A DNA stretch of 20,785 nt from a virus, in IMG/VR virus record IMGVR_UViG_3300007771_000036, positions 1 through 20,785 of that record; one strand, written 5' to 3'. This document shows positions 2,439-13,126 of this stretch, piece by piece. A program made the translations under genes and the position numbers. Position 1 is the first letter of the stretch; each line of letters opens with the position of its first letter. The notes below the pieces were generated by a model that was not told the DNA's origin, did not search any database, and worked only from the letters and a program-made list of their open reading frames with translations.

Positions 2439-2638
2439 CAAGCGTTGCCGCTCTTTAGGGCGCTCATCATCTTGGGGACAGCCTCGCCCGCGATGAAGGC
2501 CAGGCTGAGCATTAGCCAGGTCTCTGCGTCGATCCGGCCCACCATTAGAAGGCCGGTGCCGGTGGACCAGCACAAGAGGCGCCGGTAGCTGATGCGGCTG
2601 GTGGCATCAAAGAATGTGCTGAGCATTTTGGTCATCAT
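2438..2638 (-). CDS. Putative holin, 66 aa
   Basis: This short protein has two hydrophobic segments, about residues 21-34 (LLCWSTGTGLLMVG) and 41-54 (WLMLSLAFIAGEAV), with a charged turn RIDAET between them. A basic N-terminal region (SRISYRR) precedes them and a short lysine-containing tail follows. Two-helix hairpins of this size directly downstream of an endolysin are typical of class II phage holins, which collect in the inner membrane and open it at the programmed lysis time. The start overlaps the endolysin stop (ATGA at 2635-2638). The call rests on size, topology and position; there is no sequence signature that proves holin activity. Confidence 0.6.
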   Translation of the reverse strand: MMTKMLSTFFDATSRISYRRLLCWSTGTGLLMVGRIDAETWLMLSLAFIAGEAVPKMMSALKSGNA

Positions 2639-3099
2639 GTGATCCTCACGTATCCATTGGTTTTGTCCCAGCTCATCGCCTGCCGGCTCTTGCCGACGGC
2701 GCGCCAGGGTTCGCCCAGACTCAGGTGGATCCAGGTCGGGCGGTCAGCGGTGATGCCCTCAAGAATGAGCTGGCCATAGGGCAAGTCACTCCTGCGCACC
2801 CAATCAAAAACGCGTAGGTGGGGCACCCCCACCACGTAGAAGTCAGCGGCCTCACCCTTCACGTGCTGGCTAAATTGCGATGACGATCCACCCACCGCCG
2901 TGTTCAGGGCAGCACACCGAAAGCCACTGGTCACAATGACCGGAGACCGGAAGCGGTCGCGGATGGCTTGCAGCAGGGTGGCCGTGGCCTGCATGGCGTT
3001 GATGTGCTTGTGGCCCTCGGTCCAGTTTTCATCCAGGTAGGCCCGGTGGCCTGTCCGCACGAATTCTGCATAGGTGAAGTTGGGTGCCAGCTGGGTCAT
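2635..3099 (-). CDS. Endolysin: M15-family D,D-peptidase, 154 aa
   Basis: This is a peptidoglycan-cutting zinc peptidase of the M15 (D-Ala-D-Ala carboxypeptidase-like, M15_3) group, used to degrade the cell wall at lysis. SGFRC at residues 58-62 and SQHVKGEAADF at 77-87 give the family's SxHxxGxAxD pattern, with probable zinc ligands H79 and D86. WIHLS near 123-127 supplies the third ligand, H125. There is no signal peptide, so it should need the holin to reach the wall. The length matches a single-domain enzyme with no separate binding domain. The start at 3099 is preferred over an upstream in-frame start at 3123 because it makes an ATGA overlap with the previous gene. Holin-like and membrane genes follow at once. 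Confidence 0.88.
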   Translation of the reverse strand: MTQLAPNFTYAEFVRTGHRAYLDENWTEGHKHINAMQATATLLQAIRDRFRSPVIVTSGFRCAALNTAVGGSSSQFSQHVKGEAADFYVVGVPHLRVFDWVRRSDLPYGQLILEGITADRPTWIHLSLGEPWRAVGKSRQAMSWDKTNGYVRIT

Positions 3100-3329
3100 C
3101 AGGCCACCGGGGGTGGGGTCCACCCGGCGGCTGTGGCCACCTCTTCCACGGTGGACATCTCCACCCCCGCACTGTCTGCGATCGTGTGGGAGCTGAGCCT
3201 GTCAGGGCTTTCAATGGTGCACTCGGCGGTGCCCTCATCGTGGATGCAGATGCCGAAGTGGGGGCCATCATCGTCTGTGATGAGGGCCACGGTTTGCGCC
3301 ATGAAGGCCTGTGCTTCTTCTTGTGTCAT
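3099..3329 (-). CDS. Small acidic hypothetical protein, 76 aa
   Basis: I do not recognise this protein. It begins with a helix (MTQEEAQAFMAQTVALI), then a DDDG turn and short strands around a HFGICIHDEGTAECTIE segment with two cysteines. It ends in a helix (MSTVEEVATAAGWTPPPVA). It is acidic, with no signal peptide or membrane segment. It lies between the appendage gene and the endolysin, two bases after the former and overlapping the latter by ATGA. It could be a small virion, tail or lysis-control protein; nothing visible decides. Confidence 0.6.
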   Translation of the reverse strand: MTQEEAQAFMAQTVALITDDDGPHFGICIHDEGTAECTIESPDRLSSHTIADSAGVEMSTVEEVATAAGWTPPPVA

Positions 3330-9100: not shown

Positions 9101-9442
9101 AGCCAAAACCCCGCCATCTGTCCACAGGATGTGCTCCCAATCGGTGATCGATCCCGCGGCATCGTGGCCGCGCCAGAGCGTGTCCCCATCTTCTTGCCAG
9201 ATGAAGGCCGCCCCACCCGGCTCTGGGTGGCCACCTTCCATGGTCTTGATGCGCAGGGCCTTGGCCGCGGCCTGGGTGCCTGAGCTTTGCAGCACCAAGT
9301 CATAATTTCCCTGGGCCTGGGGGATCCCTGGGTAGGGCCCTGCCTGGGTAAAGCTGGATTCTGCGGCCCACGTACCCGTGCCGATCCGGGGGTCCATCAG
9401 GGCCAGGCCACGCAGGAATGAGGGTGCGGTATCGGTTGCCAT
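6146..9442 (-). CDS. Large tail-tip / receptor-binding protein with sialidase-type Asp boxes, 1098 aa
   Basis: The N-terminal 400 residues form a likely beta-propeller of the sialidase/BNR type. Clear Asp boxes (SxDxGxxW) occur at residues 210-217 (STDDGATW) and 390-397 (SRDLGSSW), with related strands between them such as DPHAITLDDGTIVLAS and YSPCLVALPDGAILLF. A long beta-rich middle follows, with phrases typical of concanavalin-like folds. The last 250 residues contain YRLRITAG, GFQKIGTAIMGPVAYFG and RRVDFAWTDGID, which I associate with a conserved tail-tip domain in siphophages. Glycan binding or cleavage of host surface sugars is inferred from the propeller; catalytic residues of a true sialidase were not verified. 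It follows the tape measure with an ATGA overlap and precedes the hub. Confidence 0.7.
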   Translation of the reverse strand: MATDTAPSFLRGLALMDPRIGTGTWAAESSFTQAGPYPGIPQAQGNYDLVLQSSGTQAAAKALRIKTMEGGHPEPGGAAFIWQEDGDTLWRGHDAAGSITDWEHILWTDGGVLAATKGTKDPHAITLDDGTIVLASQEEITGNNHRIMTRTRSPSTGTWSAAVVVHSEAPIAPGVDYSPCLVALPDGAILLFHWLEDTINEEAQVRMHISTDDGATWTVGASAALKTPVDISSSASGWVPGRLRAAYAAGQVLMVGQAQSNDPALTSRQLWLQWGSTSNGAQFDTVEIPTSSVIYMGGLDIVAHRGLFHVLFTGGSSDDLALRTCGSAYEKLSTVVETTISAAGNFADLSGAVFTDVGDCTLVIDDASTMWAYARSTTGSGDEEGIVMVSRDLGSSWRGVGTGPGALGTNIGQWWAGHDGNAYPTNYAATYQGGRVVLFHNWTAAAANEDDSLGAFYLGGYSTLTMPGLRTYRDEATQAGWIRNWIPIELPGDTGWTAAGVGAEDLDVGALDITTAGNFKHYTTTVAGSPTPANGAIIRATLQMVAGGGLTGDRVAIRLGLEDGASGYEIKLRAMHSPPKLRFVDSGGGVQIGSDISLSWDQPIDVVIAMKGASASMWWRQSSTDGDRVWNVGPTTGALVSSGGGGTSEIQWGHRISSTSQSKWTELHYAAGASAGLGLGAGQVNPDDLHARTFAGVGSHQWIDGGTRITAVDGPTRVADLWHIDTGYRHELANIFPVHSPTPRVAWRSTGVGSEDIAIPLDATLLGTAAHRMGNQAVALTLLDINWRLGTWEGYNQATSTWDTIASIDAASGLAGLSWSRHGNTVGPAGGASSGQYLHQSEFDGCTFDLNGDLRRISSTWGGSWTGTQATKQASLFLDGVTGAEAASGAANGSVWAKDLCIVVALTGDKRFSGYRLRITAGSTVDGFQKIGTAIMGPVAYFGTQYSWGRTTETAVNVAAESLQDGQVWTRVAGPAARRVDFAWTDGIDTSSLNGASPDPDYFTATASGSAEGVATVKAVPQLIDGLVRQLDGPHTPVVYLPRVPRGPSDVVTLNRRGEFMAGRMSGAARVESILGDEGDTTRGEMVRVATISIDELV

Positions 9443-11457
9443 CAGTAGCCCCTTTGCCCGGCGCGGGTCTTGCCTCGGATGGCGCGGCGCAGCTCGCCAC
9501 CGCGGCGCACCTCATCACGGGCAAAGCGATCGAAATGCTTGTAGACGGGCAGCGGCATGGAACCACCGCCCAGGCCCTGGCCAGAGTTGAGGGCGTTGAC
9601 ACCGCCGGCGCCAATGTTGGACACGGCCTGGCGGGTCAAGACCGCTTCACCCCGCAAAGCGCTAATGACCTGGCCATCGCCCTTGCCTCCGATGACCCCA
9701 CCCATATGAAACGATGGCATCTCTTGGGAGGCCACCACGGCGGCTTGGGCCGCGCCACTGGCGCCAATGCCCGCAGCTGCAAGCGGGCCACCGATGGGCC
9801 CAAGCTGTGCCAGGGCCTTGGTGATGGCCACCGCGGTGTTGATCGCGATCTCACCCATGGCGGCACCCTTGCTAAGAATGAACAGCCGCTGGGCCGCCAC
9901 ACCTTGGGCTTCACTCTGCAGATCAGCAGCGGCGGCCAGCGCCTCACCAATGCCTGCAAAGGCCTCCCTGGCGCCAGCGGTGACCTTGGCTTTTCTCTCA
10001 GCGATCCGCGCTAACTCTTCATCATGCCCATCTTGAAGGGCATCCTGGTTTGCACTCCATGCCGAAAATTGCTCGTCCATGGCGGACATCTTTAAGACGT
10101 GCTCGGCCTGGTCAGCTTCGGCCACGGCTTCAGACCTGGCGGCGGCTACCTCGGCGGTCTCCCCCGTCAGCGCTGCGATCTTATTGATCGCCAATATCCT
10201 CTCAATAAAGAGATTATTGATCGCCTCTTCGGCGGTGAAGGTCTCTGCGGACATCTGCCGGCGCAGGCCGGCCAGGTCATTGATCTGCTTCGTCAGATCC
10301 TTGACAGCGGTGGCCGCGCCCTCTGCGCCCTCTTTGTCTTTGGTGAAGGCACCCCCGTCACCTTCACTGCTGGCACTGGCGATGATCTTTTTCTGGGCGG
10401 CCTGATATCTGCCCATCTTTGTGGCTGCCCGATCCAAGATGGATGCCACAGACTCCATGGGATCTGACGATGCCTTTTCGGCCAGCTCGTCAAAGAGCTT
10501 GCGGGCCTCGCCCACATGACCCGACACGCCCAGCCACAGAGCTTCCAGCACTGTGAACGATGCGCCGAAGGCCTTGGTCATGTTGTCCATGACGCCGCCG
10601 GCGGTGGTGCCAAGGTAGACGATGCCCGCGGCCAGGTCATTGATCACACCGGCGGCGCCGCTCTGGCCCATGCTCTCGCCAATGGCGTCACCTGCGCCCC
10701 ACATCGCAGTCTTTAGGCCGGCCATCTCACGCTGCCAGCGGTTCGCGGCATCGGCAGCACCGGGGCCCACATCCACCCCAAACTCAGCGGCGGCGGCGAT
10801 GAAGGTGTCAAGGGCGGCGGGGTCACCGAGGGCCTGCAGAAGCTTGGTACCACTGGCGCCAAAAAGGTCCGAAGCCCGCACGGCACGGAGGGTGGGATCC
10901 TCAATGTCCCCCAAGGCCTTCATGGTGTCGCGGATCACATCGTCGCCGCTGCGAAGCTCTCCCATGGCGTCGTGGGTATTCACGCCCAGATCGGCAAAGG
11001 CCTCCACCGCGAGCTTGACCCCTCGATCAGCATCGCCCATGAGCTTGGGCACCTTGGCCAACACGCGGCTGAGGTTGCCGAATTCCTGGCCGCTGCCCTC
11101 TGCAGCCATGCGCAGGCCGGCCAGCACTTCCGCGCTAATGCCTGTCCGCGTGGACATATCCAGCAGCTCGTTTTTGTTATCAGCAAGCTTTTGATTCCAG
11201 ACGGCCCAGGCAGTGGCTGCGCCGGCTACGCCCTTGGCCACCTTGCCCAAGGTGTTGCCAAATTTCTGCCACTCCTTGCGGCTATTCTTGGCGGCCCGCT
11301 TTGCGGCCTTCTCTGCCTTCTGAAGGTTGCGGTCAAGGCTCTTGACCATGGCCTTGGCTTCTTTCTCAGTCAGCCCAGGGATCTTGGCCAGGTTTTCCTT
11401 CAGCGAAGAAATGTCAGCCTTGTATTTAAGCTCGACGGTGCGAGATGACCCAGCCAT
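9442..11457 (-). CDS. Tail tape measure protein, 671 aa
   Basis: This protein sets tail length and is packed inside the tail tube. The N-terminal part is a helical, lysine-rich coiled coil (residues about 12-75, LKENLAKIPGLTEKEAKAMV, then QKAEKAAKRAAKN). A hydrophobic region lies near 75-90, and the long helical middle includes RTGISAEVLAGLRMAAEGSG and DLFGASGTKLLQALG. The C-terminal end has the classic tape-measure tail, FHMGGVIGG, then GDGQVISALRGEAVLTRQAV and NIGAGGVNALNSG. A hydrophobic stretch before it (IAINTAVAITKALAQLGPIG) may be a membrane-inserting segment. At about 1.5 angstrom per residue, 671 residues would suit a tail of roughly 100 nm. It follows the chaperone and gp10-like genes, with an ATGA start. 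Confidence 0.88.
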   Translation of the reverse strand: MAGSSRTVELKYKADISSLKENLAKIPGLTEKEAKAMVKSLDRNLQKAEKAAKRAAKNSRKEWQKFGNTLGKVAKGVAGAATAWAVWNQKLADNKNELLDMSTRTGISAEVLAGLRMAAEGSGQEFGNLSRVLAKVPKLMGDADRGVKLAVEAFADLGVNTHDAMGELRSGDDVIRDTMKALGDIEDPTLRAVRASDLFGASGTKLLQALGDPAALDTFIAAAAEFGVDVGPGAADAANRWQREMAGLKTAMWGAGDAIGESMGQSGAAGVINDLAAGIVYLGTTAGGVMDNMTKAFGASFTVLEALWLGVSGHVGEARKLFDELAEKASSDPMESVASILDRAATKMGRYQAAQKKIIASASSEGDGGAFTKDKEGAEGAATAVKDLTKQINDLAGLRRQMSAETFTAEEAINNLFIERILAINKIAALTGETAEVAAARSEAVAEADQAEHVLKMSAMDEQFSAWSANQDALQDGHDEELARIAERKAKVTAGAREAFAGIGEALAAAADLQSEAQGVAAQRLFILSKGAAMGEIAINTAVAITKALAQLGPIGGPLAAAGIGASGAAQAAVVASQEMPSFHMGGVIGGKGDGQVISALRGEAVLTRQAVSNIGAGGVNALNSGQGLGGGSMPLPVYKHFDRFARDEVRRGGELRRAIRGKTRAGQRGY

Positions 11458-12008
11458 CAGCGGCCTGCCTCAATGCGTGCCAGCTCATCTGCAAGCTGGC
11501 GGGCCAGGCCTTCCACCAGGCGGGGCTTCATGCCCGGCTTAAAAAGCAGCGTGTGCGTGGGGCTGCGCACCTTGACCTCATCATTGACGACATCTTCATA
11601 GGGCCACAGCGGCCTGATGTAGTACGAATATTTGGCCGTGTTGATCACCATGATCTCCACCGCATCGCGGGTGATGCGGGCGATCGTCTGGAATTTGTTG
11701 CGGCTGCGCCGGGGGTCAGACTTGGCCTTTTGGTAGCGGGCCCGGGCTTTGCCCAAGATGCTGTTGTAGGTGCTGCGATCGCCGCGCTGCAAGGCCAAGA
11801 GGGCCACATAGCGGGCGCCAGGGCTAACGATCCGGGTGGGCCACAGCCGGCGGGCATTGGCCTCCACATCCTCTGCGGTCTTTTTCATCAGCGACAAAGA
11901 GCGCGGGATCGCCTTCTCCAGAAGCCTCTCCAGATCCCTGACCCACGGCTGGTTGATTTCCATCATCTGCCGACCGGAGCCCACCACCACCTTTGAGGGA
12001 AAGCCCAT
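11457..12008 (-). CDS. HK97 gp10-like tail/head-completion protein, 183 aa
   Basis: The protein resembles the HK97 gp10-like group of phage completion proteins. An N-terminal helical part (LERLLEKAIPRSLSLMKKTA) leads into NARRLWPTRIVSPGARY, then a basic middle, then TRDAVEIMVINTAKYSYYIR, which matches the group's N-x-A-x-Y-x-x-Y-I strand. The C-terminus is helical (GLARQLADELARI). Such proteins help join head and tail or finish the tail. The start at 12008 forms an ATGA overlap with the preceding chaperone frame; an in-frame start at 12023 would reach further back into that gene. Members usually lie before the tail tube gene, so a place between chaperones and tape measure is unusual. An alternative is an unrelated tail-assembly protein. 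Confidence 0.6.
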   Translation of the reverse strand: MGFPSKVVVGSGRQMMEINQPWVRDLERLLEKAIPRSLSLMKKTAEDVEANARRLWPTRIVSPGARYVALLALQRGDRSTYNSILGKARARYQKAKSDPRRSRNKFQTIARITRDAVEIMVINTAKYSYYIRPLWPYEDVVNDEVKVRSPTHTLLFKPGMKPRLVEGLARQLADELARIEAGR

Positions 12009-12199
12009 CAGCTGCCCAGCCAAAAGGCCTGGGCCTCATCGGCCACGGATACCCCGGGCTTCAGCTCTGCCGGCCTCTTGGACCGCGGCGGCTCGGTGGT
12101 GATCCGATGGTAGGCCATGACTTTGATCTGTTCCTGTCGGGGGAGAGAATGAAACCAGCCTGGACCATCGCCGTAGGTGAGGCCCAGGTGCAGAGCCAT
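12008..12199 (-). CDS. Tail assembly chaperone, second frame, 63 aa
   Basis: The protein (MALHLGLTYGDG, then WFHSLPRQEQIKVMAYHRI) looks like the T-type extension of a tail assembly chaperone, comparable in role to lambda gpT. The phrase ending in MAYHRI is typical of the C-terminal half of these products. It lies in the -1 frame relative to the upstream chaperone gene. It may be made on its own from the ATG at 12199, which overlaps the upstream TGA, or as part of a frameshift fusion. Fused and unfused forms bind the tape measure and tail tube during assembly. The lysine and arginine content (EPPRSKRPAELKPG) is also seen in such extensions. Confidence 0.62.
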   Translation of the reverse strand: MALHLGLTYGDGPGWFHSLPRQEQIKVMAYHRITTEPPRSKRPAELKPGVSVADEAQAFWLGS

Positions 12200-12591
12200 C
12201 AGATCGGCGCCGCCTCGGCGGCATCGGTAAAATTCGCCGCCGTGTCCACCTCTGGCTCACGCGGGAAGAGGGATGCACACAGCACATCGATGACCACCAC
12301 TGCCGCGGCCATGAGCTCTTCACGCGTATGGCCCGCGCCCATCAGCGCGTTGTACACGCTGCGCCCGTAGACGCAGACATCAAAGCCGTGGCCCTCAAAG
12401 GCCTGGTGGCCTGGCGCGTCGAGCGTGGGCACCGCCAAGCCAAGGCCGGCCATCAAGGCCCAGCCCTGGCGGCGGGGCTTGCCCGCGGCCTCGTGCCACG
12501 ACATCGCCACATCTTCACGCTCGGCAAAGCCGGGCAGGGTGATGGGGTAGTCTTGGCCCTTCAGCGTGATCACGTGCGTTCCATTGGTCAT
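12199..12591 (-). CDS. Tail assembly chaperone, first frame, 130 aa
   Basis: The product is an alpha/beta protein with a short beta start (THVITLKGQDYPITLPGF), a helical core (SWHEAAGKPRRQGWALMAGL) and a long helix (EELMAAAVVVIDVLCASLF). It ends in an acidic Ala-rich tail. Size, position between tail tube and tape measure genes, and an overlapping -1 frame behind it fit the lambda gpG type of chaperone, which keeps the tape measure soluble and feeds tail-tube assembly. The ATG at 12591 is chosen with an AAAGGAG ribosome binding site at 12601-12607, which lies inside a hairpin. A possible frameshift near codon 121 would give a 194-residue fusion with the next frame. Confidence 0.65.
   Translation of the reverse strand: MTNGTHVITLKGQDYPITLPGFAEREDVAMSWHEAAGKPRRQGWALMAGLGLAVPTLDAPGHQAFEGHGFDVCVYGRSVYNALMGAGHTREELMAAAVVVIDVLCASLFPREPEVDTAANFTDAAEAAPI
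12209..12234 (-). promoter_or_regulatory. Candidate programmed -1 frameshift site with hairpin
   Basis: On the - strand the chaperone reads AAT TTT ACC across 12234-12226. The four T at 12232-12229 allow the UUU-reading tRNA to slip back one base with full re-pairing, moving into the frame of the second chaperone. Six bases further on, the RNA has GCCGCC and GGCGGC with two bases between (12222-12209), a strong GC hairpin at the spacing typical of frameshift stimulators. The -1 frame is open from the site through the second frame, with no stop until 12008. The slip site is weaker than the usual seven-base pattern. Confidence 0.5.
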
Positions 12592-12637: not shown

Positions 12638-13126
12638 TCACACCATCGAGATCGCGCCGTAGCAAGTGAAGGAAACGCTGACCGAGTTGGGATCGCCCTC
12701 GCTCACATCCACGGTACAGTGGCAGTCATCAAGGACGATCTGGTGATCGGCGGAATCGCCGTGGTCGGTGCCCTCGATCGTCAGCTGGATCTTCACGCAG
12801 TAGACTTCACCGGTGAGCGTGGAGAGGTTGCCACTGAAGCTGCCAGACTTCATCAGAAAGTCAATCATGGTCTGATCGCTTGCGTCTGAGATGTCGGCCA
12901 GGTGGGCGGTGAACGCGCCAGATGGAAAGGTCTGGTTGCCCAGGCGCAGCGTGGAAAGGTCGCCGCGGTCCATGTAGGTGGTCACCTCTTTCAAGCTCTG
13001 GCTGAGGCCGGAGATCGAAAAGTCACCGGCCTCCAGGCTGACCGTGTAGTTGACGGCGGGGGAGGTACCGTCAAACAGCTTGATCTCTCCATCGCGAAAT
13101 GACTTCAAAAAAGTGGACGCAGGCAT
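12638..13126 (-). CDS. Major tail (tube) protein, 162 aa
   Basis: The protein is beta-rich with the size and place of a siphovirus tail tube subunit. It has an N-terminal FLKSFRDGEIKLFDGTSP, then VNYTVSLEAGDFSISGLS, a helical part (TMIDFLMKSGSF), and a C-terminal beta segment (VDVSEGDPNSVSVSFTCYG). This layout matches tube proteins that stack as hexamers around the tape measure. The start at 13126 has an AAGGAGG ribosome binding site inside the preceding gene's end. Neighbours (terminator candidate upstream, chaperones downstream) support the call. The final segment could include a small C-terminal Ig-like extension, but it is too short to say. Confidence 0.75.
   Translation of the reverse strand: MPASTFLKSFRDGEIKLFDGTSPAVNYTVSLEAGDFSISGLSQSLKEVTTYMDRGDLSTLRLGNQTFPSGAFTAHLADISDASDQTMIDFLMKSGSFSGNLSTLTGEVYCVKIQLTIEGTDHGDSADHQIVLDDCHCTVDVSEGDPNSVSVSFTCYGAISMV

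Follow-up and report, generated by a model that had tools for sequence, protein, structure and literature searches.

In the window, by which we mean the whole stretch of 20,785 nucleotides analyzed here, two overlapping reading frames in all probability encode a tail assembly chaperone in two forms, through a lambda G/GT-type −1 programmed frameshift at a relaxed slippery heptamer. The mechanism is very likely the one known from lambda, here in an uncultivated phage clade where it was previously undescribed. The slip site, the −1 frame and its position are conserved among relatives, and the model of the first product resembles a known tail assembly chaperone fold. The window sequence alone offers modest, suggestive evidence for this reading, and it is conservation that, in our view, makes it strong.

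The window is a viral contig from IMG/VR, and the chaperone pair lies on its minus strand. The first or zero frame (ch1; 12199–12591, ATG at 12591, stop TGA at 12201–12199) encodes 130 aa in a gpG-like position, between a putative major tail protein gene, assigned by position only (12638–13126, minus strand), and the tape measure gene (9442–11457, minus strand; phrog_8462, E 4.6e-18), and this tail module gene order is kept in relatives. The second, gpT-like frame extends without interruption from 12256 to its TGA at 12010–12008 (12008–12256, minus strand), of which 73 residues would be used after a slip, from base 12229. Read independently, it forms a 63-aa ORF (ch2; 12008–12199, minus strand) whose ATG (12199–12197) shares one base with the ch1 stop, giving TGATG at 12201–12197. 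Overlapping frames between major tail protein and tape measure genes characterize lambda G/GT-type loci, as do a shifted second frame, a conserved slip site and a stop-free −1 frame, and all of these are found here. The lambda G/GT tail assembly chaperone frameshift was reportedly described by Xu, Hendrix and Duda in 2004, and the lambda slip heptamer is G_GGA_AAG. Like lambda, our locus has a chaperone gene adjoining the tape measure gene, a proposed −1 shift shortly before the first frame ends, a predicted fusion carrying the second frame and, in many relatives, a second frame without its own start; unlike lambda, the window has GAATTTT, and its proteins lack a sequence match to known chaperone families.

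A first-pass annotation of this DNA had placed a candidate slip at TTTT (12232–12229), with ch2 in the −1 frame of ch1, and we confirm both. On the minus strand, the in-frame reading is GCG AAT TTT ACC, with TTT as codon 121, and because no stop interrupts the −1 frame between 12256 and 12010–12008, a slip there would join 121 and 73 residues into the 194-residue fusion that had been predicted. TTTT is the sole Z_ZZN motif among the 0-frame codons from 12258 to 12199, a stretch that holds no XXXYYYZ motif. The site had been described as an atypical, bare UUUU; the four bases are there, but they are better read as part of a near-canonical heptamer, G_AAT_TTT (12229–12235, minus strand), with the TTT of Phe121 in the A site. 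GAATTTT differs from canonical AAATTTT by one base, and by its sequence may be placed in the R_RRU_UUU class of heptamers with a relaxed first half.

In the mechanism that we infer, from the occurrence and rate of the shift to the binding partners of both products, most ribosomes would read ch1 to its stop and release the 130-aa protein. A minority would be held up by a hairpin six bases downstream of the slip site, probably aided by an upstream GAGG, and would move back by one base while tRNA-Asn and tRNA-Phe occupy G_AAU_UUU. The tRNA-Phe would re-pair perfectly (UUU to UUU) and the tRNA-Asn imperfectly (AAU to GAA), and −1 reading would go on as TAC CGA TGC and so forth to yield the 194-aa ch1–ch2 fusion, equivalent to lambda gpGT. 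The tape measure protein would be the partner of its ch1 part, and the tail tube protein that of its ch2 part. In pairs of the lambda type, the two products are made in a fixed ratio.

The main evidence comes from relatives, gathered from IMG/VR and, for two of them, from bacterial genome assemblies, by searches with the proteins of the chaperone, capsid, terminase and 244-aa neighbor genes; in the stretch beyond the major tail protein, they yield 64 distinct homologous regions. An in-frame NNT_TTT close to the ch1 stop, followed by a long open −1 frame, occurs in 63 of these, with the stop 2 to 12 codons away from TTT. Grouped at 70% fusion identity, the regions having NNT_TTT form 23 lineages, and the chance of finding the motif in all 23 from codon usage has a log10 probability of about −30, with lineages taken as independent. 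Phe121 is invariant across 27 aligned relatives and is one of only four invariant ch1 residues. The comparison proposed at first pass, of slip site and stop-free −1 frame in related phages, was thus passed by 63 of 64 regions, and the exception, L103 from a Janthinobacterium assembly, swaps its slippery heptamer: it is without TTTT, and canonical G_GGA_AAA takes its place at the homologous codon, which lies six residues past a conserved Val. That motif is followed by a 9-bp hairpin, and the −1 frame is open and lacks a start codon beyond the slip. Because one slippery motif here replaces another at the same codon, L103 is the strongest evidence that slipping is selected. Elsewhere in the family, L125 (around 11356, AAT TTT ACG TAA) and L146 (around 11777, AAT TTT TCC TAA) have a single codon between slip codon and ch1 stop, so that ch1 and fusion would part almost at once.

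The heptamer itself varies. Canonical forms are found in 40 of the 63 relatives (GGGTTTT in 35, AAATTTT in 5), and non-canonical ones include GGATTTT, GGCTTTT and GACTTTT; the triplet ahead of the T run may be GGG, AAA, GGA, GGC, GAA, GAC, AGG or CGA, with U_UUU fixed. A search for exact XXXYYYZ motifs only would overlook 23 of the 63 slip sites. We offer tentatively, at less than even confidence, the idea that P-site tRNA re-pairing is dispensable and that A-site tRNA-Phe slippage alone may be enough, with hairpins and the upstream GAGG tuning the rate; if so, the family would provide naturally occurring variants with which to tell P-site and A-site contributions apart. We considered whether hairpins are stronger where the heptamer is poorer, and the trend was not significant across lineages (p 0.13 and 0.37).

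The −1 peptide is itself conserved from the slip onward, in a Y/F-R-x-x-x-G-x-L/A-D pattern with an invariant Gly, and the whole pattern precedes any possible ATG. Fourfold-site differences in the window's group number 3 of 27 at 0 to +30 after the slip vs 9 of 12 just upstream, and they stand at 8% after the slip in the largest group. The window (12320–12120) and L003 (3270–3480) also share a near-identical patch of ~200 bases in otherwise diverged genomes; an RNA constraint was rejected as its cause, since wider relatives show normal synonymous change upstream of the slip, and recent recombination is the likelier origin.

Start codons bear on the alternatives, the likeliest of which refines the frameshift reading rather than excluding it. 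In the window's lineage, the fusion could be accompanied by free ch2 made by reinitiation, as the first pass had suggested from an ATGA overlap. A second route of this kind is possible in the window, where the conserved slip site coexists with a lineage-specific overlap, but the overlap is TGATG rather than ATGA, and an ATG overlapping the ch1 stop is confined to the window and L027/L003, L028, L026 and L014, or 4 of 23 lineages. Minus-strand genes in the window are repeatedly joined by one-base TGATG or TAATG overlaps (12010–12006, 11457, 9442, 6146, 4168 and 20186), a pattern that suggests translational coupling as the default at gene junctions of this genome; as this is the usual junction, free ch2 may be made there too. 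Free ch2 cannot be made in most relatives, however, and we consider the coexistence of both routes less likely than not.

Far less probable is a route in which ch2 exists solely as a separate protein, produced by termination–reinitiation at TGATG (12201–12197), with TTTT and hairpin incidental. The overlap is present, several neighboring genes share its one-base form, and a GAGG lies 13 nt before the ch2 ATG, yet that GAGG is beyond the usual spacing and sits inside the hairpin, and the ATG–stop overlap does not extend past the few relatives just named. The −1 peptide ahead of the ATG is conserved. Moreover, 26 of the 63 regions keep NNT_TTT and the −1 frame although the latter holds no ATG, GTG or TTG as far as +60; a further 16 have only GTG or TTG as a −1 start over that distance, and in L070 the −1 frame opens just 4 nt before the TTT codon. 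The independent ATG nonetheless counts against the frameshift reading, as do the imperfect P-site re-pairing in the window, its ordinary overall fold energy for the GC content, the absence of a chaperone family match and the weak or missing hairpin in several lineages. That the overlap arose by transcriptional slippage or by sequencing or assembly error is barely credible: a homopolymer run is involved, but four T is short for polymerase slippage, and 23 lineages, assembled independently, share the two-frame layout, with one lineage using G_GGA_AAA.

As a structure at the normal stimulator distance, the first pass had drawn a GC hairpin, GCCGCC-TC-GGCGGC, six bases downstream of the slip. A hairpin is present at that spacing, but the 6+2+6 stem is excluded because a two-base loop is impossible; folding gives GCCGC-CGAG-GCGGC (12209–12222, minus strand), a candidate stimulatory hairpin of five pairs and a CGAG tetraloop, 6 nt after the slip site and separated from TTTT by ACCGAT. 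Of the in-frame control positions in this genome, 2.7% are followed at 4–9 nt by a stem as stable (p 0.027), and the 45-nt fold energy is at the 27th percentile, ordinary for a GC-rich genome. Stems reach p<0.05 against in-frame control positions in 9 of 23 lineages, in eight of which the stem begins exactly 6 nt after TTTT, and the family-wide signal is significant (Fisher p 7e-9 over all 23 lineages; downstream 45-nt fold energies with an average z of −1.0, Stouffer −4.9). The stems at 6 nt use different bases, namely GCCGC/GCGGC, GGCGCC/GGCGCC, GCCGAC/GTCGGC and CCACCCG/CGGGTGG. Structure 5–9 nt downstream is found in the window and across the family, though not in every lineage: among the 23 tested against in-frame controls, L034, L036, L077 and L146 have no comparable stem. 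Since such lineages keep both frames intact, the hairpin is common but not required. The first pass had regarded loss of TTTT or hairpin with intact frames as telling against its proposal; several lineages have lost the hairpin alone, and the slip site is kept. A single consensus RNA structure across all lineages was not found, structures varying by group, and an Rfam search returned nothing beyond one antisense chance match below threshold.

Upstream of the heptamer, by 13 nt, the SD-like GAGG (12249–12252, minus strand) is a candidate second element and possibly a further stimulator. Its enrichment (p = 0.009 in the window; Fisher 1.5e-12 over 23 lineages) is confounded by conserved Glu-Val codons. 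Anti-SD pairing across lineages peaks ~20 nt before the slip, and GAG encodes the conserved Glu of the Glu-Val pair in all 13 cases (codon-frequency product 0.004).

The identity of the proteins was approached through sequence, structure and position. The ch1 and ch2 proteins of the window have no match among PHROG or Pfam chaperone families, and searches of the same families with 27 relatives gave no meaningful match; given strong divergence, such a match would be helpful but is not required. The AF2 model of ch1 has a pLDDT of 87.5, and ch2 is predicted to be helical (pLDDT 84.6). The best alignment of the ch1 model is with YqbN (3KLU; VIA-align Z 6.8, rmsd 3.5 over 87 residues, 2% identity), and the next chain has Z 2.6; since a Z below 8 can reflect a mere common arrangement, we take this likeness as support and not as proof. 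YqbN (PDB 3KLU) is presented as a phage tail assembly chaperone fold in a passage of PMC9603447 citing Pell 2013, and for all that it is the best structural match, the low identity sets ch1 apart, as does Foldseek, which gave the ch1 model no significant match in the PDB. Matches in BFVD are weak, many of them named tail assembly chaperone, and a sequence-profile search of the PDB was set aside, having returned nothing but designed helical proteins and further weak, unrelated matches. The chaperone label thus draws on gene order, the proposed frameshift and the resemblance of ch1 to the YqbN fold.

Several elements have parallels in the literature. The lambda G/GT frameshift is reviewed in PMC5009743. 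In Burkholderia phage PhiE067, GGGTTTT has been put forward as the slip site of the tail chaperone, where a shift at residue 127 leads to a product of 204 aa (PMC7266877); GGGTTTT is also the heptamer of 35 of our 63 relatives, a likeness of slip site and not of protein homology, and differs from the GAATTTT of the window. Measurements in E. coli show that R_RRU_UUY heptamers are unusually shifty and that R_RRU_UUU and U_UUU shift, U_UUU being a weak tetramer that needs a strong stimulator, and U_UUU/R_RRU_UUU motifs are found in IS1/IS3 elements (PMC4066793). Common to these (PMC4066793) and, as proposed, to our locus are a tRNA-Phe slip on UUU and a downstream stimulator, whereas those cases are transposons and reporters and ours is a tail gene whose P-site codon is relaxed. 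PRFect postulated 'twofour' and 'twoonefour' slippery motif classes from SEA-PHAGES annotations (PMC10885494); by our own reading of the class names, AATTTT fits the former and GGATTTT the latter. The classes there were inferred from annotation, whereas here the motifs interchange inside one homologous family.

These results would add a large uncultivated clade, which existing family libraries miss, to the known range of the lambda-type chaperone frameshift, allow the second chaperone to be annotated correctly and provide a natural set of slip-site variants. The 244-aa neighbor gene is carried by 456 contigs. Among phage isolate records, no match was found for ch1, ch2, the 244-aa neighbor or the ch1 of two divergent relatives, and by capsid protein the nearest isolates are HTVC112P and DSL-LC06. 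Elsewhere in the window, a 162-aa ORF (2635–3123, minus strand) resembles an M15-type peptidase or endolysin, an impression from sequence only. In Pelagibacter phage HTVC112P (L173, about 10495–10505), A_AAA_AAG stands at the end of the chaperone ORF beside an unannotated −1 frame, and phage DSL-LC06 (L174, about 10478–10486) has A_AAA_AAC in the same setting; these A-rich runs are likely unannotated frameshifts.
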